In this document: positions 2 to 32,441 of the stretch, piece by piece | Layout: each line of letters begins with the position of its first letter | How positions within the stretch are numbered: position 1 is the first letter of the stretch | Assembly: GCA_017531385.1 (NCBI GenBank) | Contig: JAFXLD010000045.1 | Coordinates: 1 to 33,488 of the forward strand | Direction: 5' to 3' | Source of the DNA: Clostridia bacterium | GTDB taxonomy: Bacteria > Bacillota > Clostridia > Oscillospirales > Acutalibacteraceae | Length of the DNA stretch: 33,488 nt | Made by a program: the position numbers and the translations under genes | The notes under the pieces: model-generated | The model's database searches: none | Seen by the model: only the letters and a program-made list of their open reading frames with translations | Told to the model about the DNA's origin: nothing

Positions 2-3000
2 ACAAAGGAAGCAACTGCACAGTATACATATACACATAATGGTTGGACACCTGAAATTGCAGAAGTAACTGAAGATGCAACTTACACAGCAACATACTCA
101 TCAACAGTTAATAAGTATACAATCACATTTGTTAACGAAGATGGTACAGAACTTCAGTCAAGTGAAGTAGCATACGGTGAAACACCTGCATATACAGGCG
201 AAACACCCACAAAGGCAGCAACTGCACAGTATACATATACATTCGCAGGTTGGGATCCTGAAATTGCTGAAGTTACAGGCGAAGCAACTTACACAGCAAC
301 ATACTCAGAAACAGTCAACACTTACACAGTAACATGGGTTGACGAAGACGGTACAGTTCTCGAAACAGATGAAGATGTTCCTTACGGTGCAACACCAAAT
401 TATGACGGTGCAACTCCTTCTAAGGCAGCAGATGCACAGTATACATATGCATTTGATAAGTGGTCACCCGAAATTGCAACTGTAACAGGCGATGCTACTT
501 ATAAGGCAACATATTCATCAACTGTCAACACTTATACAGTTACATGGAAGAATGAAGACGGCACTGTTCTTAAAACAGATGCAGAGGTTGCATACGGAAC
601 AACTCCCGAGTATAAAGGTTCAACTCCCACAAAGGCAAAAACTGATGAGTTTACATACACATTTGCAGGCTGGACTCCTGAAATTTCAGAGGTAACAGGC
701 GATGCTGTTTATACTGCTACATACAAAGCAGAGAAGAATAAGTACACAATCACATGGGTGATTGACGGTAAAGAAGAAACTACATCAGTAGAATACGGTG
801 CAATGCCCACTCATGCTGATCCCGTAAAGGCAGCAGATGCACAGTATACATATACATTCACAGGCTGGACTCCTGAAATTAAAGCTGTAACAGGCAATGC
901 AACTTATACAGCTCAGTTCTCATCAACTGTAAATACATACACAGTAACATGGGTAATTGATGGTGTAGAAACAAAAGAAACATATGAATACGGTGCAACA
1001 CCTTCACATGCAGATCCCGTAAAGGAAGCAGATGCACAGTATACATATACATTTAAAGAATGGTCTCCTGCAATTGCAACAGTTACAGGCGATGCAACTT
1101 ATACAGCAGTATTTGACAATACTGTAAACAAATACACAGTAACATGGATCATTGACGGCGCAGAAACAACTGAAGAATATGAATACGGTGCAATGCCTGA
1201 ACATGCAGAGCCCGAAAAGGAAGCAGATGCACAGTATACATATACATTTAAAGAATGGTCTCCTGCTATTGTAAAAGTAGAAAAAGATGCAACATATACA
1301 GCAGTATTTGATAAGACCGTAAACGAATACACAATCACATGGATCGTTGACGGTGAAGAAACAACTACAACAGTTGCATACGGTGAAACACCTGACTTCG
1401 GCTCAACTCCCACAAAGGAAGCAACAGCAGAGTTCACATATACATTTGATAAGTGGACACCTGAAATTAAATCTGTAACAGGTGCTGCAACTTATGAAGC
1501 AGTATTTACAGCAACAACAAATAAATATACTGTAACATGGGTTGACGAAGACGGTACACTTCTCGAAACAGATGAAGATGTTCTTTACGGTGCAACTCCC
1601 ACATTTGACAAGGATAACCCCACAAAGGAAAAGGATGCACAGTATGAATATGCGTTCGCAGGTTGGACACCTACTGTTTCAACAGTAACAGGCAATGCAA
1701 CTTACACAGCAACATACTCAAGCACAGTAAGAAGCTATGAAATCAAATGGGTAGTTGACGGCAACACAGTAAGAACAGATATTGTTGAATACGGTCAGAT
1801 TCCTGTATTTGGTGAAGATCCCACAAAGGCAGAAACAGATGAGTACACATACACATTTGCAGGTTGGGATTCTGAAGTTGTGGCTGTAACAGGTCCTGCA
1901 ACTTATACTGCTGAATTCACAGCTGATAAGAGATCTTACACAATCACATGGATCGTTGACGGTAACGAAACAACAACAACAACTGTCAAGTATGGTGAAA
2001 CACCTGCTCTTGATGATCCCACAAAGGCTCCTTCAGCAGAGTATACATACACATTCAAAGAATGGACTCCTGCAATCAAAGCTGTAACAGGTGATGCAAC
2101 ATACACAGCTGTATTTACAGAAACTCCCAATGTATATACAATTACATGGGTTGGTTACAACAAAACAGTAACTACTGACGTTGCATACGGTGCTCAGATT
2201 GTAGAACCTGCAGTTCCGGAACAGCCCGGATTCATAGGTGTTTGGGAAAATGTTCCCCAGACAATGCCTGCTGAAGATATTACAATCAATGCAAAATATT
2301 CACAGAATGTTATCACTGTAACATGGATTGTTGACGGAGTAACTGTAAAAACAGATGCTGTTGAATACGGAAACAAACCTGTATTTACAGGTGCAACTCC
2401 TGTAAAGGCTCCATCAAATACAGAAGTTTATGAGTTTATAGGCTGGTCAGAAGATGCAAACGGCAACGGCGAAATCATAACTGACAATAAAGACTTCCCC
2501 GAAGCATCTGCAGCAACAGGCAATAAAACTTACTACGCAGTATTTGAAAGCACCACAAGATATTACACAATCACATGGAAAAACGGCAACGATATTATCT
2601 ATTCAGATGATACTCTTGAATACGGCGAAACTCCTGAATATAATCAGACTAAGTACGGTATTCCCACAAAGAATGCAACAGCACAGTATTCATACACATT
2701 CGACGGTTGGGATCCTGCAGTTGCTAAAGTAACAGGCGATGCAACTTACACAGCACAGTTCAAAGCTACTGTAAATACATACACAGTAACATGGATCATT
2801 GACGGTAAAACAGAAACTGAGACATATGCATATGGTGTAATGCCTACTCATGCAGAACCCACAAAGGCAGCAACAGCACAGTATACATATACATTTGCCG
2901 GTTGGGATCCTGCAATTACAACTGTAACAGGCGATGTAACTTATACTGCAAAATTCAATGCTACAGTTAACAAGTACACAGTTACCTGGGTAGATGAAAA

Positions 3001-5764
3001 CGGAACAGTTCTTGAAACTGATACAGGCGTTGAATTCGGTACAAAGCCCACATTCGATAAGGCTAACCCCACAAAAGCAGCAACAGCACAGTATACATAC
3101 ACATTTGCCGGTTGGGAAGGCTTGACAGATGACACAACTGTAGAAGGTAATGTAACATTCAAGGCAACATATTCATCAGCTGTTAATAAGTACACAGTTA
3201 CTTGGGTAAATGATGACGGATCATTAATTGATACTACAACAGTTGCATATGGTACAGTTCCTACTCATGCTGATCCCTCAAAGGCAGCAGATGCTCAATA
3301 TACATACACATTTGCAGGTTGGGATAACACACCTGTTGCAGTAACAGGTGAAGCAACTTACAAGGCAACTTATACATCAACTGTCAATAAGTATACAATT
3401 ACATGGAATATTGAAGGTCAGAACCCGATTACAGAGGAAATTGAGTATGGTGAAACACCCAGCTATAAGGGTGAAACTCCCACTAAGCAGGGTGATGCAC
3501 AGTATTCATACAAATTCACAGGTTGGACTCCTGCAATTTCTGCGGTAACAGGTAAGGCAACTTATACAGCTCAGTTTGAACGTATAACAAACAAGTACAC
3601 TGTAACATGGATCATTGACGGTGTGGAAACAACTGCTGAATATGAATATGGTACAGAACTTACTCCTGCTGAGCCAACAAAGGCAGCAACAGCACAGTAT
3701 ACATATACATTCACAGGTTGGTCACCTGCACTTGAAACTGTAACAAAAGATGCAACTTATACAGCTCAGTTCTCCTCTACTGTAAATACATACACAGTAA
3801 CATGGGATATAGATGGTGCAAAAACAACTGAGACATATGAGTACGGTGCAACACCCAGCTACAAGGGTGAAGCTCCCACAAAGGCAGCAACAGCACAGTA
3901 TACATACACATTTGCAGGTTGGAACGGCTTGACAGCAGAAACAACTGTTACAGGCAATGTAACATTTAAAGCAAACTTCAGCAGTGTAGTCAATGAGTAC
4001 ACAATCACATGGCTTAATGACGACGGTTCATTAATTGATACTACAACAGTTGCATATGGTACAGTTCCTACTCATGTTGAACCCACAAAGGCAGCAACAG
4101 CACAGTATACATTTGAATTTGCAGGTTGGGATAACACACCTGTTGCAGTAACAGGTGAAGCAACTTACAAGGCAACTTATTCATCAACAGTCAACAAGTA
4201 CACAGTAAAATGGGTTGTTGAAGGTACAACTGTTGAAACAGATTCAAATGTTCCTTACGGTACAGATCCCGTATTTAACGGCTCAACTCCCACAAAGGCT
4301 GCAACAGCACAGTATACATATACTTTTGCAGGTTGGGAACCCACTATTTCAACTGTAACAGGCAATGTTGAATATAACGCAACATTTACACCTGTAACAA
4401 GATCCTACACAATCACATGGCTTAATGACGACGGTTCAGTAATTGATACTACAACAGTTGCATATGGTACAGTTCCTGTTCATGCTGATCCCTCAAAGGC
4501 AGCAGATGCTCAGTATACATACACATTTGCAGGTTGGGATAACACACCTGTTGCAGTAACAGGTGAAGCAACTTACAAGGCAACTTATACATCAACAGTC
4601 AACAAGTACACAGTAACATGGGTAGTTGAAGGTGTAACAGTTGAAACAGATGAAAATGTTGAATACGGCAAGACACCTTCTTACGACGGTGATGAACCCA
4701 CTAAGACAGGTGATGCACAGTATTCATACACATTTGACAAGTGGACTCCTGAAGTTGACACCGTAACAGGTGATATAACTTACACAGCTACATTCACACA
4801 GTCAGTAAACAAGTACACAATTACATGGCTTGATGACAACGGTTCAGTAATTGATACTACAACAGTTGCATATGGTGATGTTCCCACTCATGCTGATCCT
4901 ACAAAGGCAGCAACTGCACAGTATACATACACATTCACAGGTTGGGACAATACTCCCGTAGCTGTAACAGGTGATGCAACTTACAAAGCAACCTATAAAG
5001 AAAATGTAAGAAAGTACACAATCACATGGGTTGTTAACGGTACAGAAACAAAAGAACAGTATGAATACAATGCTGTTCCTTCATTCAAGGGCTCAACAGA
5101 TATTCCTTCAACCGAATCAACAACATATGTATTCAAAGGTTGGAATAAGGAAATTGCTAACGTAACAGCAGATGCAACTTACACAGCTGAATACGATGTA
5201 ACTGTTAAGACCCACACTATTACATGGATCGTTGGCGATCAGGAAATCAAACAGCAGTGGGCATACGGTACAGTACCCACATTCGATGGCTCAACAGATA
5301 AGGCTCCTTCTGCAACAGCTACTTATACATTTGCAGGTTGGGATAAGACTCCTGTTAAAGTAACCGGCGATGCAACTTATACAGCAACATATACAGAAAC
5401 TCCGAGAATGTATACAGTTACATGGATCGTTGACGGTACTGTTGTAAAAACAGAAGCTGTGGCTTATAACGCTGTTATTCCTGTTCCCGGACTTCCTTCA
5501 GATAAGGAAGGTCATACAGTTAAATGGGATAATACAGTTACAGTAATGCCCGCAAGTGATGTTGAAATCCATGCAATCTATACTCCCAGAATGTATCCTG
5601 TTTATTGGATCGTAGACGGAATCACAGTATATTCCGCATCTGTTCCTTACGGTACTGCAATTCCTGAAAAGGCTGTTCCCGCAAAGGAAGGTCATACAGG
5701 TAAATGGTTGAATGTTCCCGCAACAATGCCTGCAGGAATCGTTATGATTAACGCTGAATACACT
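2..5764 (+). repeat. Tandem coding repeat array, about 195-246 bp per unit, with a 408-bp higher-order period
   Basis: About 29 consecutive units encode the B-repeat modules. Motifs such as ACAGTATACATA and GCAACTTA recur once per unit. On top of the single-unit period, four units that contain the string ATTGATACTACAACAG start it at 3227, 4034, 4442 and 4850. The steps are 807, 408 and 408 bp, so a two-module unit has been duplicated. Such an array is expected to change length by recombination and is prone to misassembly. Confidence 0.9.
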
Positions 5765-6409
5765 GCAAGATCTTATCAGGTATTCTGGAAGATCGGTGAT
5801 GTTCAGAACACAGAAACCGCAACATACGGTCAGGATCTCGTTCTTACATTTGATATTGAAACACTTCCTGAAGACTTAAGAATTACAGTTAACGGTGCTG
5901 TTCTTTCTGCTGATAATTATGAATATGATGCAGCAGCAGGTACACTTAAGATTTACGGTGCTGCTATCACAGGCAACATAAACATTGTTGCAAAATCAAC
6001 AAGCGGCAGTGTAAATGTTCTTAACAGCATATTTGGCGGTTCATCTTCAAATACAAACAGCGTTATCAATATGAGAACTACATATCATACAACAATTACT
6101 CCTGCAGCAGGAAATCTTCTTCCCAAGACAGTAGCAATTTATGTTGATGGTATTCTCGTAACAAACGGATATAGTTATGATCCTGCAACAGGTAAGCTTA
6201 CTATCAATGCAGAAGTAATCGTTGGTGAGCTTGAAATCTATGCAGAATGTCCCGAAGATCCCAACTATAATCCTACAGAGGATTGCGATTGTGCTTGCCA
6301 CAGTAAAAATGCACTTGTTAAATTCTTCTTCACAATATTCAACTTCCTTCGTGAGTTGTTTGGTATGAAACAGTATCAGTATTGTGAATGTGGTGTAGCA
6401 CACTGGTAA
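2..6409 (+). CDS. Giant surface protein with about 29 InlB/Listeria-Bacteroides-type repeats (5' end missing)
   Basis: The frame is open from the first bases of the window, so the true start lies upstream; the GTG at 758 is an internal Val codon. The visible 2135 residues are mostly tandem modules of 60-82 residues that follow the pattern YT[VI]TW-(I/V)DG-...-YG..P-...-YTYTFAGW-P-...-VTGDATYTA. This matches the beta-rich InlB B-repeat / Listeria-Bacteroides repeat family of secreted surface proteins. Modules 12, 28 and 29 are a variant with W..VP.TMPA.D. The last 210 residues or so hold two related Ig-like segments (each ending in a YxYDxxxGxLxI motif) and a tail with CDCACH, a Phe-rich helix and CECGVAHW. 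No LPXTG motif is present. Adhesion, or a stalk or spacer role on the cell surface, is inferred; no catalytic domain is visible. Third positions are strongly biased (ACA, GCA, GTA), as in a highly expressed secreted protein. Confidence 0.9.
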   Translation, partial: TKEATAQYTYTHNGWTPEIAEVTEDATYTATYSSTVNKYTITFVNEDGTELQSSEVAYGETPAYTGETPTKAATAQYTYTFAGWDPEIAEVTGEATYTATYSETVNTYTVTWVDEDGTVLETDEDVPYGATPNYDGATPSKAADAQYTYAFDKWSPEIATVTGDATYKATYSSTVNTYTVTWKNEDGTVLKTDAEVAYGTTPEYKGSTPTKAKTDEFTYTFAGWTPEISEVTGDAVYTATYKAEKNKYTITWVIDGKEETTSVEYGAMPTHADPVKAADAQYTYTFTGWTPEIKAVTGNATYTAQFSSTVNTYTVTWVIDGVETKETYEYGATPSHADPVKEADAQYTYTFKEWSPAIATVTGDATYTAVFDNTVNKYTVTWIIDGAETTEEYEYGAMPEHAEPEKEADAQYTYTFKEWSPAIVKVEKDATYTAVFDKTVNEYTITWIVDGEETTTTVAYGETPDFGSTPTKEATAEFTYTFDKWTPEIKSVTGAATYEAVFTATTNKYTVTWVDEDGTLLETDEDVLYGATPTFDKDNPTKEKDAQYEYAFAGWTPTVSTVTGNATYTATYSSTVRSYEIKWVVDGNTVRTDIVEYGQIPVFGEDPTKAETDEYTYTFAGWDSEVVAVTGPATYTAEFTADKRSYTITWIVDGNETTTTTVKYGETPALDDPTKAPSAEYTYTFKEWTPAIKAVTGDATYTAVFTETPNVYTITWVGYNKTVTTDVAYGAQIVEPAVPEQPGFIGVWENVPQTMPAEDITINAKYSQNVITVTWIVDGVTVKTDAVEYGNKPVFTGATPVKAPSNTEVYEFIGWSEDANGNGEIITDNKDFPEASAATGNKTYYAVFESTTRYYTITWKNGNDIIYSDDTLEYGETPEYNQTKYGIPTKNATAQYSYTFDGWDPAVAKVTGDATYTAQFKATVNTYTVTWIIDGKTETETYAYGVMPTHAEPTKAATAQYTYTFAGWDPAITTVTGDVTYTAKFNATVNKYTVTWVDENGTVLETDTGVEFGTKPTFDKANPTKAATAQYTYTFAGWEGLTDDTTVEGNVTFKATYSSAVNKYTVTWVNDDGSLIDTTTVAYGTVPTHADPSKAADAQYTYTFAGWDNTPVAVTGEATYKATYTSTVNKYTITWNIEGQNPITEEIEYGETPSYKGETPTKQGDAQYSYKFTGWTPAISAVTGKATYTAQFERITNKYTVTWIIDGVETTAEYEYGTELTPAEPTKAATAQYTYTFTGWSPALETVTKDATYTAQFSSTVNTYTVTWDIDGAKTTETYEYGATPSYKGEAPTKAATAQYTYTFAGWNGLTAETTVTGNVTFKANFSSVVNEYTITWLNDDGSLIDTTTVAYGTVPTHVEPTKAATAQYTFEFAGWDNTPVAVTGEATYKATYSSTVNKYTVKWVVEGTTVETDSNVPYGTDPVFNGSTPTKAATAQYTYTFAGWEPTISTVTGNVEYNATFTPVTRSYTITWLNDDGSVIDTTTVAYGTVPVHADPSKAADAQYTYTFAGWDNTPVAVTGEATYKATYTSTVNKYTVTWVVEGVTVETDENVEYGKTPSYDGDEPTKTGDAQYSYTFDKWTPEVDTVTGDITYTATFTQSVNKYTITWLDDNGSVIDTTTVAYGDVPTHADPTKAATAQYTYTFTGWDNTPVAVTGDATYKATYKENVRKYTITWVVNGTETKEQYEYNAVPSFKGSTDIPSTESTTYVFKGWNKEIANVTADATYTAEYDVTVKTHTITWIVGDQEIKQQWAYGTVPTFDGSTDKAPSATATYTFAGWDKTPVKVTGDATYTATYTETPRMYTVTWIVDGTVVKTEAVAYNAVIPVPGLPSDKEGHTVKWDNTVTVMPASDVEIHAIYTPRMYPVYWIVDGITVYSASVPYGTAIPEKAVPAKEGHTGKWLNVPATMPAGIVMINAEYTARSYQVFWKIGDVQNTETATYGQDLVLTFDIETLPEDLRITVNGAVLSADNYEYDAAAGTLKIYGAAITGNINIVAKSTSGSVNVLNSIFGGSSSNTNSVINMRTTYHTTITPAAGNLLPKTVAIYVDGILVTNGYSYDPATGKLTINAEVIVGELEIYAECPEDPNYNPTEDCDCACHSKNALVKFFFTIFNFLRELFGMKQYQYCECGVAHW

Positions 6410-11883: not shown

Positions 11884-12067
11884 AAACAATAATTTATCGG
11901 CAGAGCCGATAAAAATTCGCAATTCGTAATTCGCAATTGTGGAAAGGGCTTCGCCCTTTGACCCATTTGTATAATTCAAGCCCGAAGGGCTTCCGATAAT
12001 TGCGAATTGAGCATTGAGAATTGAGAATTGAAACAATAATTTATCGCACAGCGATAAATTATTGTTT
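11884..12067. repeat. Intergenic heptad-arm element, copy 1 (AATTG/AATTC subtype)
   Basis: The termini are AAACAATAATTTATCG at 11884-11899 and its exact complement at 12052-12067. Inside are four left heptads of AATTCGC type (11914-11941), the hairpin AAAGGGC/GCCCTTT (11943-11959), the hairpin AAGCCC/GGGCTT (11978-11992) and five right heptads of AATTGAG type (11998-12032). The right end is itself a perfect 16-bp hairpin, 12031-12046 with 12052-12067, loop CACAG. The element fills the gap between the convergent genes htrA and dpaB, and the dpaB stop codon (12059-12061) lies inside its terminal repeat. It has no coding capacity. Confidence 0.85.
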
Positions 12068-12631
12068 CAGTATCGGCTGGATCTGTTTTCCTACCATTGC
12101 CTGCAGGAATGTATCCTTGATTTTAGAGAAATCCGCAACGATTGATGTTGGCTTCTTTTCGCTGTCGTCCTGTCCGTAAGGTACAAAATAGATGTTTTTG
12201 TAATTTAAAAGATTACCTATATTTTTTGCGGCATTGCTCAGTGCATCATTTGTTGAAACGGCTATAATGACGGGATTTGCGTTTCTTAAGGTGGACTTTG
12301 CCGCAAGAGTAACGGGTGTGTCGGCAATGCCTACGGAAAGTTTTGCCAGTGTGTTGCCGGTGCAGGGTGCGATAATGAGTGCATCAATCATTTTTTTCGG
12401 ACCGATGGGCTCTGCTGCTGTGAGAGAGTGAATAATTTCTCTGCCGCAGATGTTTTCTATTTCATCAATGAAGCTTTTTGCAGTACCGAATCTTGTATCT
12501 GTGTCATAAGCATTGCAGGACATGATCGGTACCACGTCAATTCCGGAATTTTTAAGTTCCCTGATATATGGAATAACTTTGCTGAAGGTGCAGAATGAAC
12601 CACACATCGCAAAGCCTGCTTTAATTGCCAT
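12059..12631 (-). CDS. dpaB: Dipicolinate synthase subunit B (SpoVFB)
   Basis: A 190-residue flavoprotein-like subunit from the ATG at 12631, which has GGAG 8 bases upstream; the GTG at 12640 is less well placed. The N-terminus AIKAGFAMCGSFCTF and the segment DALIIAPCTGNTLAKL match the DpaB/SpoVFB group of the HFCD flavoprotein fold. With DpaA it makes dipicolinic acid from the lysine-pathway intermediate in the mother cell during sporulation. The start overlaps the dpaA stop by 11 bases, so the two are translationally coupled. The last two codons (Lys-Gln) and the stop lie in the terminal repeat of a repeat element, so the C-terminus may differ slightly from the ancestral one. Length is close to the usual 195-200 residues. 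Confidence 0.92.
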   Translation of the reverse strand: MAIKAGFAMCGSFCTFSKVIPYIRELKNSGIDVVPIMSCNAYDTDTRFGTAKSFIDEIENICGREIIHSLTAAEPIGPKKMIDALIIAPCTGNTLAKLSVGIADTPVTLAAKSTLRNANPVIIAVSTNDALSNAAKNIGNLLNYKNIYFVPYGQDDSEKKPTSIVADFSKIKDTFLQAMVGKQIQPILKQ

Positions 12632-13469
12632 TGCTATCACTCCAGTAGTACGAAAGCACCGTATCGCTTATGATTTCACCTGCAGTTTTCGGAGATATTC
12701 TACCGGGCAGTGATCCTGCTTTTATTGCGTTGATTCCGAATTCGGATGCACAATCAAAATCTATACCGAACGGTGCGGATGCGATTTCTATAATAACGCA
12801 GTCTTTTTTTAATTTTGAAAGAATGGTTCTGTCAATTATTCTTGAAGGAACAGTATTGATTACTGCACTGAATTCATGACAGATGTGGGAAAAATCCTGA
12901 AGGGGGCATATATTCATCCCGTCTTTTTCTGCATCGGAGAGATTTTTTTCGCTTCTTGCAACTGCAGTTACATCAGCACCGAGAGCTTTGAGTTTTTGTG
13001 ACAGTACACTTGCACATTTTCCGTAACCGGTAACTGCACATTTAAGTGAGTCAATCGTAACAGGCAACGCATTTATGAGTATGCCGATAACACCTTCGGC
13101 AGTGGGAATAGCGTTTTTCCTTGCAAGAGAATCATTTTTGTAATAATCATAAACAGTCACATTTTTGCTTTTAAGTTTCTGAATCTGTTCTTCTTTAAAA
13201 AGACCTCCTGCAACAATGCAGTTTTCGGGAAGAAGCCTGAAAAAATCTCCGAAATAGAAGTTTTCTCCCGCAAGGGGAGTGTTTATATTGATATTATCAC
13301 GGCTTACGGGTACAGGCAGGATAAATATGTCAATATCTCTGAAATCATCTGCCCTGTATTCTCCGGGATAGATGCGTTTTGCGGAATATCCTTTATTTTC
13401 AAGAATAGTCTTGATGTATGAAAAACGGCAGTCACCACCGATTATCATGAAGTTGGGTTTCTTTTTCAT
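12621..13469 (-). CDS. dpaA: Dipicolinate synthase subunit A (SpoVFA)
   Basis: 282 residues. The N-terminal SpoVFA domain begins FMIIGGDCRFSYI, and a Rossmann nucleotide-binding domain follows with VTGYGKCASVLSQKLKALGA and AVARSEKNL. The product is the dehydrogenase-like subunit of dipicolinate synthase, which acts late in sporulation. The ribosome binding site AGGAGG lies 7 bases upstream of ATG, in the loop of a 7-bp inverted repeat (ATATCAC 13468-13474 / GTGATAT 13482-13488). A sequence resembling a sigma-K promoter lies just upstream. The gene is divergent from recJ across a 430-base gap and is followed by dpaB. Confidence 0.93.
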   Translation of the reverse strand: MKKKPNFMIIGGDCRFSYIKTILENKGYSAKRIYPGEYRADDFRDIDIFILPVPVSRDNININTPLAGENFYFGDFFRLLPENCIVAGGLFKEEQIQKLKSKNVTVYDYYKNDSLARKNAIPTAEGVIGILINALPVTIDSLKCAVTGYGKCASVLSQKLKALGADVTAVARSEKNLSDAEKDGMNICPLQDFSHICHEFSAVINTVPSRIIDRTILSKLKKDCVIIEIASAPFGIDFDCASEFGINAIKAGSLPGRISPKTAGEIISDTVLSYYWSDSNGN

Positions 13470-18160: not shown

Positions 18161-18439
18161 ATGGAGAAAAAATTATATCGTTCAAACACAGATAAAAAGA
18201 TCGCAGGCGTATGCGGCGGTATTGCAGAATATCTTAAAATTGATTCAACTATTATAAGACTTTTACTTGTTGTTTTTTGTCTTATGGGCGGTGCAGGGGT
18301 ACTCCTGTATATTATTGCCTGGCTTGTTATACCCGAAAGACCTGATAATAATTTTGATTATTACCATAATAACGGAAATCCTTATAATAATGAAAATCCG
18401 TATAATAACGGTAATCAGAATAACGGTGGCAATCAATGA
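18161..18439 (+). CDS. PspC-domain small membrane protein with Asn-rich tail
   Basis: 92 residues with AAGGAG upstream. The PspC domain covers about 1-60: KKLYRSNTDKKIAGVCGGIAEYL, then one hydrophobic helix (about 31-55) ending IAWLVIPE. The last 30 residues are a low-complexity, Asn/Tyr/Gly-rich tail with repeated NPYNN, encoded by short imperfect DNA repeats. PspC proteins in Firmicutes are small envelope-stress-related membrane proteins; the exact role here is unknown. The stop overlaps the dtd start (ATGA), so translation is coupled. Its position inside the rel-dtd block is unusual. Confidence 0.85.
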   Translation: MEKKLYRSNTDKKIAGVCGGIAEYLKIDSTIIRLLLVVFCLMGGAGVLLYIIAWLVIPERPDNNFDYYHNNGNPYNNENPYNNGNQNNGGNQ

Positions 18440-18897
18440 AAGCAGTAATTCAGAGAGTAAAATCATCATCAGTCAGGGTTGACGGTGAAATTGTCGGACA
18501 AGTGGGGCATGGATATCTTGTTCTTCTCGGTGTTATGGATGGTGACACAAAGGCTCATGCTGAAATGATGGCAAACAAGACTTCGGCACTGCGTATTTTT
18601 TGTGATGAAGATGACAAAATGAACAAGTCAATTCTTGATATTGACGGTGAAATTCTTGTTGTATCGCAGTTTACCCTTTGTGCAGATGTGAAAAAAGGTA
18701 ACAGACCTTCATTTGCAGCTTCTGCAGCACCCGATATTGCAAATGAACTGTACGAATATTATATGGAATGTCTTAAGAAAAACGGCGTCAGAAAGGTCGA
18801 ACACGGTATTTTTGCGGCAGAAATGGAAGTTTCCATCGTCAATGACGGCCCCGTTACAATTCTTTACGACACGGATATATGGAAAGTCAAACAATAA
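18436..18897 (+). CDS. dtd: D-aminoacyl-tRNA deacylase
   Basis: 153 residues, the standard length. Family signatures are MKAVIQRVKSSSVRVDG at the N-terminus, the SQFTL catalytic motif (VVSQFTLCAD) and the NxGPVTI motif (VNDGPVTILYDTD), which together form the cross-subunit active site. The enzyme recycles D-aminoacyl- and mischarged glycyl-tRNAs. It starts inside the pspC stop (ATGA overlap). The last two sense codons and the stop (AAA CAA TAA) are part of the terminal sequence of the repeat element that begins at 18889, so that element sets the end of the protein. Confidence 0.95.
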   Translation: MKAVIQRVKSSSVRVDGEIVGQVGHGYLVLLGVMDGDTKAHAEMMANKTSALRIFCDEDDKMNKSILDIDGEILVVSQFTLCADVKKGNRPSFAASAAPDIANELYEYYMECLKKNGVRKVEHGIFAAEMEVSIVNDGPVTILYDTDIWKVKQ

Positions 18898-19078
18898 TTT
18901 ATCGGGCTGTGCCCGATAAATTATTGTGGTGAGAAGTGAGGAGTGAGAAGTGAGGAGTTTCGGAAGGGGCAAGCCCCTTAAACCCCATTATATAGAGCGT
19001 AGCGGAACAAGTGCGTAGCACTTCCGACACTCCTAACTCCTAACTTCTAACTCCTAATTCTTTACTAAATTATTGTTT
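18889..19078. repeat. Intergenic heptad-arm element, copy 2 (GTGAGGA/AACTCCT subtype), inside an operon
   Basis: AAACAATAATTTATCG at 18889-18904 starts the element; the right end (19066-19078, TAAATTATTGTTT) has lost the CGA. The left end forms a perfect 17-bp hairpin (18891-18907 with 18911-18927, loop TGT). Four left heptads alternate GTGAGAA and GTGAGGA (18929-18956). Next come a GGGG/CCCC hairpin (18964-18979), the hairpin AAGTGC/GCACTT (19009-19023) and five right heptads of AACTCCT type (19028-19062). The left and right heptads are roughly complementary, so the whole element can fold back on itself. It lies between dtd and the MBL hydrolase and must be transcribed if they share a message. 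Confidence 0.88.
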
Positions 19079-25116: not shown

Positions 25117-25348
25117 AAACAATAATTTATCGGGCTGTGCCCGCCAATAGTTAGGAGTGAGGAGTGAGAAGTGAGGAGTTTATGAAGGGGCTTTGCCCCT
25201 TACCTCATTATAATGCAGTTTGTTCGCAAATGGCGGTATATCGCTGAAATTTGAATTTATTTCAGAGCGTAGCGGAACAAGTGCGCAGCACTTCCGACAC
25301 TCCTAACTCCTAACTTCTAACTCCTAACTCACCGATAAATTATTGTTT
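25117..25348. repeat. Intergenic heptad-arm element, copy 3 (GTGAGGA/AACTCCT subtype, with insertion)
   Basis: It runs from AAACAATAATTTATCG at 25117-25132 to the exact complement at 25333-25348. The left hairpin is broken after GGGCTGTGCCCG. Left heptads (GTTAGGA, GTGAGGA, GTGAGAA, GTGAGGA) lie at 25150-25177 and right heptads (CACTCCT, AACTCCT, AACTTCT, AACTCCT, AACTCAC) at 25298-25332. A segment of about 45 bases absent from copy 2 (about 25213-25264) contains the inverted pair TGAAAT/ATTTCA. The element fills the space between hup and the oppositely transcribed glucan synthase, whose stop codon (25347-25349) straddles its right edge. No gene lies in this 302-base gap. Confidence 0.88.
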
Positions 25349-28300
25349 AGCTTATCACAAACTCTCTTATATTACCGTCGATGGTGATTTTTACCTTGCT
25401 TCCGCTGAATCCTTCTGGTAAGCAGGGATTTGTTATTATAAGACCGCCTGTCTGGGTAATTCCGAGCATTTTTTCATAAACAGTTCTGTAAAACCAACCT
25501 GCGGAGCCTGTATAAATGCTCCAGCCGCCTCTGCCTTCAAGTCCTTTCCCTGAATAAACGTCACCTGCAAGATAATAAGGCTCGGTTTTGTAGATTTGGG
25601 AATTTTTGTTGGCAGGATTCAGAGTTTTCAGTATTTCGTATCCTTTATCGCCGTTGCCCATCGAAAAATATGCATCTGCAAGCCAGACAGCGCCATGCGT
25701 GTATTGTCCTCCGTTTTCACGGATGCCTGCAGGATATCTGTTGACATATCCTGCAGTTTTTCCTTCTGTAGTAAATGGCGGAGTAAAAAGCTTAACCAAA
25801 GAATTTTCTTTGTCATACAGGAGTTTGTCGGCAGTTTCCAGTGCAATTCTGCATCTGTTTTTGTCAGGCATACCTGTAATTGCACTCCATGCCTGAGGAA
25901 GAAGATCTATTTCGCACTGTCTGTCACCTGCTTTTCCCATCGGTGTACCGTCGTCATAGAAACAGCGGAGATATCTGTCATCTGCCCATGCATGTGTGTC
26001 AATTGAGAGAATAAGTTTGTCTGAAAGTTTTGTAAGTGTGTCTGCTGTTTTTCTGTCTTTAGCAAAAAGGGCTGTGAGCGTGAATTTTTTTGCGACATAG
26101 CTTAAAAACATGGCAAGCCAGACGCTTTCACCTTTGTTTTCGGTGCCCACAGCATTGAATGAATCGTTCCAATCTCCGCCTTTAATCAGCGGTAAACCGT
26201 GTTTGCCGAATGAACAAGCATGATAGATCGCTCTCAGACAATGATTGTAAACAGAATCTTTTTTGTCGCTGAGTGTGTATTCGCCGTAGCGTTCTTTTTC
26301 GCCTTTTTCAAGCACGGGTGCATCAATAAAAGGAACGGAAATATTCAGAATTGATGAGTCACCTGTCTTTGTGCAATATTCGCTCACTGCAAGCGGAAGC
26401 CAGAGCAGATCATCGCTGTAATGTGTTCTCACACCTCTTAATACACGTTTATTGTTTATAACTAATTGATGAAACCAATGAAGCACATCGCCTTCACAGA
26501 ATTGTGCAGCAGCACAGCGGATAATATGAGTGCGAAGAATTTCAGGATGAGTCAGTATTACAGCCATTGCATCCTGAAGCTGATCACGGAAACCGAAAGC
26601 TCCGCTGCATTGATAAAATCCCGTTCTGCCGTAAATTCTGCCCGAAATTATCTGGTTCGGAAGAAAATTGTTAAAAATATAATCAAGCTCTTTATCGGGA
26701 GTTTCAATTTCTATTTTGTTTGTGTTTACTTTTTTAGGTGGAATATAGGGCATATCAGCAGCAGATTTTATGCTTAGTGAATAGGAAAGATAAAACTTTA
26801 TTGTTGCCGAATTTTTTGGCGGAAGAATAATTTTTCTTTGTGCTGCAATACAGTCATTTATCAGTTCATTCTGCTTTTTACCGCAAAGAAAAGCAGTTTT
26901 ATCCGTAATAAAATCACACCTGTCGTCAGACGAAACACAAAAATAGCCGTTGAAAACAGTGTTGTAAGGGTTGTGTGCAAATGCTTTCTTATCTTTTACC
27001 ACGGTTTTTATAAAGCGGGAATTTTTCCTGATATCACCGAGCACAGGTTCGGTATAATAAAATAAAGAAAAACTCTTTTCTTCGTTACTGTTATTGAGAA
27101 TTTCAATTTGTATATCCTTGCACATATTTTCGCCTTTGACAGTAACGGTTGTCTGAAAAATAAGTCCTTCTGCAACCGACAGATAACGTGCCGTTCCTTT
27201 TTCAAAAACGGCTGTGGAGCCTTTTATGATATTGATTCTTTTTTTATCTGTTTCAAGCAGAAGCATTTCACTGTCGAGAGTTTCTCTTGTGTTATTGCTC
27301 CATGGTGTAAGCTTGTTTTCTCTCGAATTGAGTGCCCATGTGAAACCTATTGAAGAATCTGAAACCAATGTGCCGAAATTCTTGTTCGCAATAATGTGAC
27401 ACCATGGAAGATACGGTGTTTTTCCTATTATATAACCCTTGTTTGTGAACGAATTTCCGGTATTTTTAATTTTTTTGCAAGGAGATATCGGGATTATATT
27501 TTCGGGAGAAGCTGATGTTTTATTGTTCTTTTCGGGATAAACGGCAGTAGCACACGATGTCAGAAGCAATAAATCATTTCTTGTCAGATCATCGGCTTTC
27601 AGAATAAATATTCCGCCTCTGTTTCCTATAATGTCAGACAGTGAATCACCGCATATTTTTCTGATATTTTCAGTGAAAGAATCAATATAACCGTCTTTGC
27701 TGTCGGTTATGAAAACTGTTTCCGTAATGATTCCCGCAAAACGCAGTTTGCTGTAAAGCTTTACAAAAGACGATGCGGCTGTGATGTCATTTTTGTCTGC
27801 GAAAACAAGAATAACAGGAAAGTCCCCAGATACGCCTGTTTTCCACAGATCATTCCGTGACAGAGTATTGTTTTCCACAGCTTTCAGTGTTTCTGATGAA
27901 TGAATTCTGCCGAAAAAGCTTCTTTCAATGACTTTTTTTGCATATATCCCTGTTATGCTTGTTTTATCAAACAGAGATAATGCGCATTTTAATAAAGCCG
28001 GAACACCGTTTTTGCGTATTGCAGCTAATCTGTTTATGCTTTCCTGCATATCGGAAGATCCGCAGATAATCATTGTTTTTGTTACGGTTTCTTTAGGGGA
28101 TAGTGAAAGTTTTATTTTTATCAGAATACATTTGTCTGCAGATTTTGAGGAAAAATCAATATTATTTGAAAAAACACCCGAAATGCCTGAATTACGGGGA
28201 ATCACAGCTTCACGATCATCGCAGTATTCAAAATCTGCTTTATCCAGAAAGCCCATGGAAACGTAAATCTGTTTTTCTTTGTTGTGCTGTTTTCTTGTAA

Positions 28301-31300
28301 CTGACAACAGTTTTTCATCATCATTTTTTTCAATATCAATAAAAAGCTTTGAAAAAGCAGGATGTGCAATCTGATCATTGATATTTTCAAGTGTTGGTTC
28401 ACAGTAAATCATCAGTTCGACCTGTTTTTTTTCTTTTGTCTTGTTTTTGACGGTGTAACGATGAATTTGTGCAGGTAAAAACGGATGAACAGCAACAGAT
28501 TCGGTTATCGAAAATGTGTTGTCGCTGTTTTTGTAAACTGCTGATGTTTCATCGAATGATGCATTATGATTCTGATTCCCGATTATCGCACCTGAAAATG
28601 AAAGTATATTGCCGTTATTTGTTTTTATAGCTGCAAAAATACCGTCAGGCGAAGAGAATAACGAATGTCTTTTTGCAAAAATGCAAGTGTTTCCGTATAC
28701 AGAAAGGGACCGTCCCGAATCAGTTGCAAAAACACTCCATTCACCGTTGGATATTGCATGGCTTTCATATGAAAAAGTCGATATCTGCTGATATGCGTCA
28801 TTGATTTTCTGTATTCTCTCGGGTCTTTTCGGTGCAGAAACATCTCCGATATTCTTGTATACTTTCATGTCAGAGGGAATTCTTTCTGCCAACAGACTTT
28901 TTCCGCCTGCCATAAAAACATTCTTCATGAACCGTCGCTGCATGATATTGTCAAAAACCGCATTTGCGGCAGAAAGAAAACTCATGCCCACATGATGTGC
29001 CATGAAGCTACGAACAATTGAATAATCCTGACCGTCAGTCCGTGACGGAGTGTAATCAACAGCTTCATAAAAACCGAATTTGCCGTACATTCCGATTTTT
29101 TCAAGTTTTTGCAGATTACTGATCCCCGAATGCGGATCAAAAGGTATTGTCAGAAAGGTAGAGTATGGAGAGATGACAGTTTCGCTTTCTGATGCTGTTT
29201 TCATGGCAATACTGTTGACACCGTGAGCTTTGTAACGGTAATTCAGAACGGAGTCAAAGGCATAATAACCGCTTTCGGAAATACCGTAAGGAATATTTAA
29301 GTTTTTTACACGTTTTTTCTGACAGTGTATGCAGAATCTGAGAGCTTCATATCCGAGCGTATTCTTTTCTGACGGAACAAAAATTGCAGGCATGAAATAT
29401 TCAAACATAGTGCCGGACCAGGAAACAGGACCTGTGTATCTGCCGTTTGCGGAAAGAGGTCTTGCAAGAGCCTGCCAATGGCTGACAGGCACTTTACCCG
29501 TGGCTACCGCAAAGTAACTTGTCATTCTTGCTTCACTCATAAGAAGATCAAAATAACTGCTTGTCAGTTCATTTTTTTCCGTATCGAAGCCTATTCTGAA
29601 AAGCTTTCGTCGTTTGTCATACAGAAAGTCAAGGTCGCATTCATTTATCAGTTTATTGCATTTTTTTGTTATTTCCCGGAGTTTCGGGTTTTCATCCGTA
29701 TAGCTCTCAAGACCTTCTGCAAGCGCTACAATGCAACACAGAAAATTTCCGCTGTCAACGGTTGAAATGAATTTAGGCTGCATTATTTCAAGTGTACGGG
29801 TATTGTACCAGTTGTATAGATGACCTTTATATTTTTTTACTTTTTCGATGGTGTCAAAGGATCTTGAGAGCATATCGTAAAGCTCATCTGTGTCAATAAA
29901 ATCAAAATCTCTTGCTGCAAGAAAAGAGCAAAGCATCATACCGATATTTGTGGGCGATGTCCTGTCAGCTTCCCTGTAAACAGGCGTTTCCTGAACATTA
30001 TCAGGGATAAGATAATTGTTTTTTCTGTTGCAATGAGTTTCGTAAAAACGCCACATTGAGGCACAGTAGGAGAGCAGTCTGTTTTTTTCGTTTTCAGAAA
30101 TTTTTATTTCATAAGATGGCCTTTTTCTTGCTGACAAAACAGAAAAGGGCATATCAAGAACAAACAGAATGCCTGTCAATTTTGCAACAGGATTGCCGTA
30201 TAGGATAAGAAAAATTCCGACAAGCAGAGACGGCAATGATTTTTTTGCAAAAGACATAGCCGTGCCCGAATTGCTGTCTGCGGCAGTTGTCCATTCGAGC
30301 AGATGTTTTTTTGAAAATATCATTCTGAAAAGGCTCCGTATAACAGCATCAATACTGCACACGGCGTTTGTCAGCATCATTATAACCGAAGTAAAAGCCT
30401 TTGCAAGACAATTAAGTGCATAAGGCATTGCATCTGAAAAATACAGTCTCGAAAACATTGAGATTCCGCCGTTTATGAGAGTAATAAAACATGAAAAAAG
30501 ATGCGGCATTGCCATGGAGAGAGTCGCAATTGTTGATAAAATAATTGCAGCAGTATCGGGCATAAAAACGGATAAAACAAGACAAAAGCAAGCAATGACA
30601 GGCGTTACTGCACGGCGGATGTTATCTGCAAGCCAGAATTTTCCGAGTACCGAAAGACTTCCTGAAGGAACAGAGTTTTTTCTTTTTAAAATAAAAGGAA
30701 AATTCTGAACATCGCCTCTTATCCATCTGTGAAGACGTCTGAAATACGCATTTTCATTTGACGGAAAAGAATCCGTCAGCGTTATATCACCTGCAAATGC
30801 AGTTCTGAGAATTATTCCTTCGAGAATATCGTGGCTTAAAATTCTTTGTTCAGGAAAACGGTCAGGCATAAGTGTGTTGAAAGTTTTAATATCGATAAGT
30901 CCTTTTCCTGAAAAAATGCTTTCGGAAAAAAGATCCATATATTTTTCTCTGACAGCAGATGTGTAAGCAGGCAGACCGCCGTTTCCTGCCATAACAGATG
31001 AAAAATGTGTTTTACATGCAGATTTCACATCCGTTTCAACTCTGGGTGAAATTATACCGTAGCCTTGTGTTACACGCTGTTCGCTGACGGAGATAACAGG
31101 TCTGTTTATCGGATGTGCCGCAATAGATACGATTTCGCTTAAAGAGCCCAACGGCATCTTGGTGTCCGAATCAAGAGCCATGATATACTTGGCACCCACC
31201 ATCTTTTCTGTGTCACCGTGAAGAATAAAAAAGTCATTTTTACCCTCTTGAATAAGCTTTGCAAGTGATATTATCGCTCCTCTTTTTCTTTCGTATCCCG

Positions 31301-32441
31301 TGTATTCTTTTTCGGATTCTGAATATATACGTTTGCGTATTGCTAAAATTATTTTGTCTGAGCATTGGCTGTTCAGTATATCAACAGCACGTCTGATTGA
31401 TTTTATGTCAGCATTATCGCTTTCTTTTGTGGGGGTAGAAGAGCTTTTCAGGTCTGCAAGAATACAGATGCACGTGTTGTCACGACAATTTGAAAGATAG
31501 AGATTTTTTATATTTTCGCATAAATCTTTTGCACAGCCTGCTGACGGCAAAAGTGTGGAAATTGCAATCACGGTTTTTTCGCTGTCGGGAATACCTGCAG
31601 AAAAATCCATTTTAAAAACGGGTGCCCTTGCGGGAATATGTGAAAAAATAAAGTCAGTTATAAATTTCAGAGCTTCCCATAAGGGCAAATATATTAAAAA
31701 TAAAACATACCATTGTTTTGTTACAATGGAGAGAATTACACCTGCAATTAACGGAAGTATTGCTTCTGTGGCAAAAAGTAATTTGCCTGTATTTTGTCTG
31801 TCTTTTGTTATATCAAGAAAAAAACCGATATGCTTGTTTTCTTTTTTTGCCTGTTCAAGAAGCCGTGTCGCAACTGAAATCTCACTAAGTCCTTCTTTTT
31901 CAGCCATTTTACATATTGCCGTGCGATAAATGTCTTTTGTCTGCTCACTCATTTTTCTGTAAACACCTACAGGGTCCCGGCACAGCAATTTTTCTGTTTC
32001 ACTGACCTGATAAAGTATTTCTCCGAAATCAATATCGGGCAGAACAAAAAGCGATCTGATTGAATTTATGAGCATATCTTCATTTGTGTTTATGCTTTCT
32101 GTAATCAACCCGATAAGCGTAAAAGCAATTGCTGTCGGCAGAGTCTGAAGAAAAGCTGTTGTTGTGTTTTTTTTCAGAAGAAAAGATATTATATCCTGAG
32201 TTTTCGGCAAAACACCGCCAGTGCAAAGCTCTTTGCAGATTTCAATTGATGACGGAACCGAAAGGCTGATTTTTTTGTTTTTCAACGCTTTTGAGACTGC
32301 GGTAAAATTTTTTTCGATAATATGGAAATTGTCTGTAAACCACATTATGCCTTCGCTTTTTTCCGCAACAGATGTGTATGTCTTCTTATATTTTCTGAGT
32401 ATTCTGATATTTTTTTTCAGCAGAGTTTTTATATGTTTCAT
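25347..32441 (-). CDS. Cyclic beta-1,2-glucan synthase (GT84, glycoamylase-like/GH189 and GH94-like domains)
   Basis: A 2364-residue multidomain membrane protein. Order of domains: N-terminal region (1-220); transmembrane segments (about 225-265); GT84 glycosyltransferase with DSDTK (424-428), GKGLIDI, SHDILEG and RRLHRWIRGD (568-577); more transmembrane segments (about 605-770); a glycoamylase-like/transglycosylation domain (about 785-1195) with PVSWSGTMFEYFMP and SIVRSFMAHHVGMS; then a GH94-like region to the C-terminus with GGDWND (2088-2093) and QYTHGAVWLADAYF. This is the NdvB/ChvB architecture that elongates, cyclises and trims beta-1,2-glucan. The upstream AAGGA is 13 bases from ATG, a weak site. 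The gene stands alone, convergent with hup and divergent from yebC. Its C-terminus appears complete. Confidence 0.92.
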   Translation of the reverse strand: MKHIKTLLKKNIRILRKYKKTYTSVAEKSEGIMWFTDNFHIIEKNFTAVSKALKNKKISLSVPSSIEICKELCTGGVLPKTQDIISFLLKKNTTTAFLQTLPTAIAFTLIGLITESINTNEDMLINSIRSLFVLPDIDFGEILYQVSETEKLLCRDPVGVYRKMSEQTKDIYRTAICKMAEKEGLSEISVATRLLEQAKKENKHIGFFLDITKDRQNTGKLLFATEAILPLIAGVILSIVTKQWYVLFLIYLPLWEALKFITDFIFSHIPARAPVFKMDFSAGIPDSEKTVIAISTLLPSAGCAKDLCENIKNLYLSNCRDNTCICILADLKSSSTPTKESDNADIKSIRRAVDILNSQCSDKIILAIRKRIYSESEKEYTGYERKRGAIISLAKLIQEGKNDFFILHGDTEKMVGAKYIMALDSDTKMPLGSLSEIVSIAAHPINRPVISVSEQRVTQGYGIISPRVETDVKSACKTHFSSVMAGNGGLPAYTSAVREKYMDLFSESIFSGKGLIDIKTFNTLMPDRFPEQRILSHDILEGIILRTAFAGDITLTDSFPSNENAYFRRLHRWIRGDVQNFPFILKRKNSVPSGSLSVLGKFWLADNIRRAVTPVIACFCLVLSVFMPDTAAIILSTIATLSMAMPHLFSCFITLINGGISMFSRLYFSDAMPYALNCLAKAFTSVIMMLTNAVCSIDAVIRSLFRMIFSKKHLLEWTTAADSNSGTAMSFAKKSLPSLLVGIFLILYGNPVAKLTGILFVLDMPFSVLSARKRPSYEIKISENEKNRLLSYCASMWRFYETHCNRKNNYLIPDNVQETPVYREADRTSPTNIGMMLCSFLAARDFDFIDTDELYDMLSRSFDTIEKVKKYKGHLYNWYNTRTLEIMQPKFISTVDSGNFLCCIVALAEGLESYTDENPKLREITKKCNKLINECDLDFLYDKRRKLFRIGFDTEKNELTSSYFDLLMSEARMTSYFAVATGKVPVSHWQALARPLSANGRYTGPVSWSGTMFEYFMPAIFVPSEKNTLGYEALRFCIHCQKKRVKNLNIPYGISESGYYAFDSVLNYRYKAHGVNSIAMKTASESETVISPYSTFLTIPFDPHSGISNLQKLEKIGMYGKFGFYEAVDYTPSRTDGQDYSIVRSFMAHHVGMSFLSAANAVFDNIMQRRFMKNVFMAGGKSLLAERIPSDMKVYKNIGDVSAPKRPERIQKINDAYQQISTFSYESHAISNGEWSVFATDSGRSLSVYGNTCIFAKRHSLFSSPDGIFAAIKTNNGNILSFSGAIIGNQNHNASFDETSAVYKNSDNTFSITESVAVHPFLPAQIHRYTVKNKTKEKKQVELMIYCEPTLENINDQIAHPAFSKLFIDIEKNDDEKLLSVTRKQHNKEKQIYVSMGFLDKADFEYCDDREAVIPRNSGISGVFSNNIDFSSKSADKCILIKIKLSLSPKETVTKTMIICGSSDMQESINRLAAIRKNGVPALLKCALSLFDKTSITGIYAKKVIERSFFGRIHSSETLKAVENNTLSRNDLWKTGVSGDFPVILVFADKNDITAASSFVKLYSKLRFAGIITETVFITDSKDGYIDSFTENIRKICGDSLSDIIGNRGGIFILKADDLTRNDLLLLTSCATAVYPEKNNKTSASPENIIPISPCKKIKNTGNSFTNKGYIIGKTPYLPWCHIIANKNFGTLVSDSSIGFTWALNSRENKLTPWSNNTRETLDSEMLLLETDKKRINIIKGSTAVFEKGTARYLSVAEGLIFQTTVTVKGENMCKDIQIEILNNSNEEKSFSLFYYTEPVLGDIRKNSRFIKTVVKDKKAFAHNPYNTVFNGYFCVSSDDRCDFITDKTAFLCGKKQNELINDCIAAQRKIILPPKNSATIKFYLSYSLSIKSAADMPYIPPKKVNTNKIEIETPDKELDYIFNNFLPNQIISGRIYGRTGFYQCSGAFGFRDQLQDAMAVILTHPEILRTHIIRCAAAQFCEGDVLHWFHQLVINNKRVLRGVRTHYSDDLLWLPLAVSEYCTKTGDSSILNISVPFIDAPVLEKGEKERYGEYTLSDKKDSVYNHCLRAIYHACSFGKHGLPLIKGGDWNDSFNAVGTENKGESVWLAMFLSYVAKKFTLTALFAKDRKTADTLTKLSDKLILSIDTHAWADDRYLRCFYDDGTPMGKAGDRQCEIDLLPQAWSAITGMPDKNRCRIALETADKLLYDKENSLVKLFTPPFTTEGKTAGYVNRYPAGIRENGGQYTHGAVWLADAYFSMGNGDKGYEILKTLNPANKNSQIYKTEPYYLAGDVYSGKGLEGRGGWSIYTGSAGWFYRTVYEKMLGITQTGGLIITNPCLPEGFSGSKVKITIDGNIREFVIS

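Follow-up and report, generated by a model that had tools for sequence, protein, structure and literature searches.

The stretch of DNA analysed here (the window) comprises 33,488 nucleotides of contig JAFXLD010000045.1 from a Clostridia bacterium, whose draft genome (G000) spans 2.47 Mb in 107 contigs and is 83% complete. Three intergenic repeat elements, all read on the forward strand, were found in the window, as a first, sequence-only reading had reported. Copy 1 (184 bp, 11884..12067; class A, with AATTCGC and AATTGAG heptads) begins with an inverted-repeat end whose terminal hairpin is shortened (11884..11913), followed by a left arm of the heptads AATTCGC, AATTCGT and AATTCGC (11914..11939), a core running from the GGAAAGGGCTTCGCCCTTT hairpin through a second hairpin with a terminal CTTCCGA (11941..11996), a right arm of AATTGCG and AATTGAG type (11997..12030) and a complete 37-bp palindrome (12031..12067), which encloses the stop codon of a reverse-strand gene at 12059-12640. 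Copy 2 (190 bp, 18889..19078; class B, with GTGAGGA and AACTCCT heptads) starts with a complete palindrome (18889..18927) that provides a deacylase gene (18436-18897) with its final codons and its stop, and continues with a left heptad arm (18929..18958), the core TCGGAAGGGG...CTTCCGA (18960..19027), a right arm of AACTCCT and AACTTCT heptads with a short link (19028..19065) and a half palindrome, TAAATTATTGTTT (19066..19078). Copy 3 is also of class B and has a longer core (232 bp, 25117..25348): its inverted-repeat left end forms an incomplete hairpin (25117..25148), its heptad arms (left, 25149..25180; right, 25298..25332) surround the core GAAGGGGCTTTGCCCCTTA...CTTCCGA (25184..25297), and its right end is the exact 16-mer on the reverse strand (25333..25348) that holds the stop codon of a reverse-strand frame of 2364 aa (25347-32441). 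All parts were delimited on the sequence, together with folding (the three whole copies, their left ends and the core of copy 1), the 7-bp period (left arm of copy 1), arm pairing (all other arms), 16-mer matches (right ends of copies 1 and 3) and a genome pattern search (core of copy 3).

With regard to the surrounding genes, two neighbouring ones adjoining copy 1 (12059-13469, reverse strand) match a flavoprotein domain and the N-terminal domain of dipicolinate synthase subunit A, which hints at a spore-forming lineage. Besides the 2364-aa frame, the window contains a second very long frame of 1883 aa (758-6409, forward strand), for which Pfam gave weak matches only.

The terminal 16-mer occurred seven times in the window at up to two mismatches, against 0.05 expected, and none of 100 shuffled sequences reached seven. 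The three copies also folded far better than their shuffled counterparts (DNA z scores of -9.8, -9.9 and -8.5 for copies 1 to 3; 0 of 200 shuffles each). The earlier description of a shared 16-base terminus with its complement needs correcting for copy 2, which lacks the full terminal complement: its right end reads ACTAAATTATTGTTT, and the complement of the 16-mer, with two mismatches, sits inside its left hairpin (18914-18929).

The whole genome contained 58 exact copies of the 16-base end (0 for the reversed control) and 163 at up to two mismatches (2 for the reversed control), so the outcome that would have told against the sequence-only reading, a family limited to these three copies, did not occur. 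Thus, the three window copies are members of one dispersed family with fixed ends. Elements with an interior (cargo) measured 120-308 bp, were non-coding with no long frames seen, and combined shortness and high copy number with terminal inverted repeats, as miniature inverted-repeat transposable elements (MITEs) do. In the genus, the exact 16-mer was found in 5 of 11 genomes (G000 counted), and it was absent from 49 sampled genomes outside it. A slightly wider end pattern matched 16 of 300 genomes of the taxonomic family, in a search where the reversed control also matched in a few genomes; these were two of the same genus, two of a second genus with true elements (G140 and G238) and 12 single genomes. 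The palindrome pattern had no match in viral contigs, and a literature search returned no description of the family, the sequence strings yielding only papers unrelated by title. The proposal that the copies might represent a structured RNA gained no direct support, with no Rfam 15 family matching at gathering score across the whole window, while the picture of one composite intergenic family, probably non-autonomous and once mobile, held up.

The element ends were nearly fixed and palindromic (AAACAATAATTTA...TAAATTATTGTTT) and were often lengthened by a variable stem to a palindrome of 32-42 bp. Despite its variation the stem stayed paired, at 85% of positions compared with 39% after shuffling (66 inner sequences with both strands listed, about 33 of them independent). 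In many filled elements one end was a complete palindrome and the opposite end a half palindrome. Between the ends, four kinds of interior could be distinguished: arms of 7-bp repeats, hairpin arrays whose period is close to 21 bp, REP-like hairpins tagged with GTAG (GTAGGG...CCCTAC pairs) and none at all, the last being bare palindromes of 32-42 bp (in G000, L015, L034, L036 and L044). The heptad arms used about ten texts (such as AATTCGC, GTGAGGA, ATTGAAA, AGATAAT, GTAGCAA, ACAATGT, CAGTGAT, GTGAAAA, GAATAAT and ATGCATA) around a core that was usually GGAAGGG...CTTCCGA. Modules were also mixed, class-A arms being joined to a class-B-type core in L013 of G000 and L166 of G004. The heptad construction first noticed in the window was borne out across the family: among 44 of the 66 extracted units (at least 120 bp, no N, two mis-paired units excluded), lag 7 exceeded all other lags from 4 to 13 in 36, and mean identity at lag 7 was 0.397 as compared with 0.263 after shuffling. 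Both the heptads and the ends are direct observations.

In most elements, though not in all, the left and right arms were complementary. For 13 representatives, own arms paired with a mean of -28.5 kcal/mol, compared with -12.8 kcal/mol for random swaps (0 of 20000 permutations); related heptad texts cross-paired, and the own partner came out on top in 5 of the 13 rows. When the elements were scored one at a time, 31 of the 43 units reached z < -3, including window copies 1 and 3 and not copy 2 (z -1.6); this count, in which L139 was also left out, used whole 60-base stretches, so that arms lying off register score low. In copies 2 and 3, the two arms differed mostly by the same base in every heptad (left GTGAGGA, right read back GTTAGGA), and each arm therefore looks as if it had been homogenised separately. 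The idea of selection on structure fared unevenly: the pairing of most arms agrees with it, but the element at site a in G004 carries two arms of unrelated kinds, and slippage within each arm also explains the recurrent single-base difference seen in copies 2 and 3.

We examined the genomic setting of 54 units with more than 700 bases of flank on each side, taking frames of at least 90 codons rather than curated genes as neighbours. Neighbours could be called on both sides in 46 of them and were convergent in 15 cases, tandem in 27 and divergent in four. For 38 of the 64 frames pointing at an element, the stop codon lay within the element end. A T preceded 71 of 105 ends, and T...A flanks bordered 24 of 49 elements; both counts exclude any palindrome with cargo behind it, two units that were mis-paired and all ends above one mismatch. 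The bias towards TA and stop codons fits insertion at TA dinucleotides that was tolerated at stop codons, although it does not amount to proof. A clean empty site with a target duplication, which the sequence-only reading had named as something to look for, was not found among the genomes compared; the one orthologous empty site with both flanks, in G005 at L034, is too diverged to prove duplication of TA.

To compare the same sites across species, we used G000 and its closest relative, G008, and counted sites with an element in both genomes and matching flanks on both sides. Ten such sites came to hand (S1, S2, a, b, c, d, L048, L034, L026 and L024; not a random sample), with aligned flanks 75-96% identical, S2 and d being read across contig ends in G008. 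The interior class differed at nine of the ten, the remaining one (L034) being a bare palindrome in both species, which bears out the modular exchange suggested from the window alone. Three of the nine (c, d and L026) reflected a bare palindrome in one species and cargo in the other; at the six sites with cargo in both (S1, S2, a, b, L048 and L024), all six differed. BLAST was applied to nine of the ten pairs (d excluded), of which c, L026 and L034 involve a bare palindrome and are uninformative; five of the six cargo pairs had no similarity in the interior and S2 shared a 41-bp piece of the core, the boundaries of sites a and b being approximate on the G008 side. Within G000, by contrast with these orthologous sites, 15 of 17 elements were matched by a copy elsewhere, at 84-98% identity across 147-218 bp; one of the other two interiors had a best copy at 70% and one had no copy.

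Further relatives (G004, G005 and G007) were compared with one or both flanks aligned. Site a contained four different interiors in four species, and at L034 a class A element was present in G004, a REP-like one in G007 and none in G005. Interiors also differed at L031 (G005), at L022, L024, L025 and L038 (G007) and at L042 (G004), whereas S2 is a counter-case, its heptad class being common to G000 and G007. At the G007 orthologue of L034 (L193), about 25 bp of the neighbouring gene's end (AACTTAATCTTACGGGAAGAATAAG) flanks the REP-like element on both sides, resembling a long target duplication. Several sites remained outside the count of ten: the site of window copy 3, where the left side differs in G008; L043, with at most a half remnant in G008; L136, with none in G000; L013, L025, L036 and L042, whose second side was unmatched or far; L031, where the G008 contig ends; L137 and L140, with gaps of 0.6-2.5 kb in G000; and L132 and L133, for which one side or none was found in G000. 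L134 was likewise not counted, as its element in G008 joins flanks of two separate G000 sites, L015 and L018, which would reflect either recombination between elements or misassembly. The rearrangements at L134 and at the copy 3 site in G008 may be real or mis-assembled.

Considering that all genomes compared are drafts, some of them metagenome assemblies, short-read assembly might have set wrong interiors between right flanks. In G000, at least 51 of the 214 contig ends have an end sequence no more than about 350 bp away, so that the elements explain some of the breaks in the assembly, and the joined flanks at L134 would fit such an artefact. However, misjoins would break the synteny of the flanks, and at the counted sites both unique flanks are kept and the inside alone differs; such differences also occur deep in long contigs (sites a, b and c on C30 of G008) and in other genomes. 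We therefore consider an assembly artefact very improbable. The sharing of sites and the difference of their interiors are observed directly, and together they suggest that the site was inherited and its interior replaced, such repeats swapping their content in place.

It is also conceivable that different elements of the family repeatedly entered the same few hot sites. The preference of the ends for TA and gene 3' ends is in line with such re-insertion, as is a second type of end, AAATCAGAATTT, which G004 and G007 carry at some of the sites occupied by the first type in G000 and G008. On the other hand, at two sites G000 and G008 share identical flanks that depart from the TA rule (TTTCCCGG at S2 and a C before the left end at L026), which indicates inheritance of the site and not two separate hits. 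We also estimate that coincidences should be rare when roughly 100 insertions per genome can fall on thousands of possible TA sites. Independent re-insertion thus appears quite unlikely.

Another question is which unit moves. The hairpin pattern of the class-B core occurred at 42 places in G000 (at most one mismatch; control 0), and an end sequence could be seen beside the core at 29 of the 30 loci looked at: the 26 visible left sides had 22 ends of the first type and one of the second, and of 17 visible right sides 15 had an end. The class-B interior accordingly does not wander free, and free mobile interiors were rejected, the end being absent from both visible sides at a single locus of the 30. 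The broader proposal, that interiors are separate mobile elements which enter a resident palindrome, with a RAYT transposase moving the REP-like class, has more in its favour for that class. In G004, a 170-aa Y1 transposase frame (L289, 1338-2033) lies between GTAGGGCGG and CCGCCCTACG hairpins, its protein matching NCBIfam REP_Tyr_transpos at 50.6 bits, below the cut-off of 80, and in G007 a Y1 (RAYT-like) frame (L290, 1258-2117) lies beside GTAG-tagged hairpin pairs, so that the REP-like interior class looks RAYT-linked in these two genomes. However, Y1 matches were obtained in G000, G004, G007 and G010, and the search found none in G005 or G008, both of which carry the REP-like class; moreover, the REP-like interiors L132 and L133 of G008 share linkers as well as ends, so that the whole bounded unit seems to have been copied. 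Together with the near absence of class-B cores free of ends, these observations make separately mobile interiors rather improbable. A composite transposon was rejected too, since the gene that two opposed elements enclose in G005 (L068) gave matches to periplasmic binding protein domains and none to a transposase. It should be noted that in G000 the same foreign sequence runs from inside both copies of the pair L018/L049 to the contig end, and likewise for the pair L029/L040, as if an insertion sequence had entered these elements.

Alternatively, a dedicated cassette system might operate, in which a site-specific recombinase or transposase acting at the palindromic ends swaps interiors between dispersed sites. 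The constancy of site and ends with a different interior would be expected from it; the bare palindromes of G000 look like emptied sites, and a complete palindrome facing a half palindrome is the expected product of one-site circle integration. The spacers of the 13-bp arms in the bare G000 copies vary from 7 to 16 bp, which is unlike a fixed core site, and no transposase or recombinase tied to the ends was found, Y1 being the transposase family searched and hsdS-associated enzymes the one recombinase lead. That lead came from the 12 single-genome matches outside the two carrier genera, eight of which lay within hsdS-like frames and mostly had an inverted copy close by; Pfam was run on four of these frames, with three above the cut-off, and tyrosine recombinase genes were nearby in all four hsdS-like loci tested. 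The other four matches were in G224, G194, G088 and G239, with no second matching end nearby in the first three. In the genus of G000 itself, 16 of 18 hsdS-matching loci had no close copy of the end, and these loci gave one 13-base match, L094 in the non-carrier G010, and none in a carrier; the closest relative of the hsdS-locus recombinase in G000 was only 32% identical. We therefore rejected the idea that an hsdS invertase crosses over at these ends, since the hsdS-matching loci of the same genus, apart from the 13-base match, lack the end sequence and relatives of the recombinase there are distant. The hsdS inversion loci, in other genera of the taxonomic family, have an inverted repeat of 15-17 bp in nearly the same DNA letters, there encoding the HsdS motif INNNL, and we judge the likeness to be a coincidence. 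Four loci in such genera (L072, L073, L075 and L078) have inverted repeats over the INNNL stretch, silent 3' pieces of hsdS and a tyrosine recombinase gene, and are apparently phase-variable type I restriction loci. With its sole lead having failed, a dedicated cassette system appears unlikely, if the least so of the alternatives. Slightly more doubtful still is its most extended form, in which genome-wide docking sites, mostly at gene 3' ends, would hold cassettes actively swapped by a putative dedicated recombinase, each species reshuffling one shared library (heptad, hairpin-array and REP-like) over largely shared sites.

We favour, at about even odds (a probability of roughly 0.5), the explanation that these MITE-like elements trade their interiors with other dispersed copies through ectopic recombination. 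The palindromic ends probably inserted at TA dinucleotides, many of them within a stop codon or directly behind one, where they would do little harm; the sites are old, being shared by sister species. During replication, the terminal hairpins and the long folded interior may cause stalling or breakage. A second copy elsewhere in the genome would then serve as the repair template, with the shared ends of 13-39 bp as anchors, and its interior would be copied in, while slippage would keep the 7-bp units within each arm alike. Shared ends of this length are short for RecA-type recombination, which counts against ectopic exchange. The second end type at shared sites means that the ends can change too, and exchange that relies on the ends alone as anchors leaves this unexplained. 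In E. coli, SbcCD and RecA act at palindromes (PMC3315005); that they do so at the elements of G000 is our inference.

Bacterial repeats are usually read as either inherited or newly inserted. Here, site and content separate: the position persists, whereas what it contains changes more quickly than the genes on either side. Confirmation would make this a case of rapid ectopic exchange or dedicated cassette swapping among dispersed bacterial repeats, and would provide a natural test bed for the origin of heptameric repeats and for the ways in which palindromic repeats homogenise and rearrange genomes.

Among known systems, Correia/NEMIS and RUP elements are bacterial MITEs with TA target sites. 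The family resembles them in being short, non-coding and intergenic, with inverted ends, many copies and TA-biased flanks. It differs in that its ends are themselves hairpins, its interiors are unrelated in kind and differ at orthologous sites, and no parent transposon was found for it. The likeness to REPINs and to REP sequences with RAYT, as described in PMC3116915 and PMC3733652, lies in palindromic, non-autonomous repeats at gene 3' ends and in one interior class that is GTAG-tagged and, in G004 and G007, RAYT-linked; unlike these systems, the window copies contain no GTAG hairpin pair, such hairpins being present only in that one other interior class. GTAG repeats are listed for Proteobacteria, Cyanobacteria, Chloroflexi and the PVC group in PMC3733652, the main text of which makes no mention of Firmicutes or Clostridi.

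Heptads are also present beyond the family. A degenerate 22-mer of class-B heptads matched 11 of 398 genomes of the phylum (G000 counted), while its reversed control matched two genomes, one of them among the 11; all five loci inspected had heptads and lacked the layout of the elements. Cyanobacterial heptads presumably share some of the very texts of the family. With the heptameric tandem repeats described in PMC4679880 and PMC4692102, the family has in common an exact 7-bp period and an intergenic position. In those accounts a single text is repeated directly in a plain array, and such arrays have been reported for Beggiatoaceae, cyanobacteria and Bacteroidetes (PMC4679880), whereas the heptads of the present family form two opposed arms in many texts, placed around a hairpin core within fixed palindromic ends.
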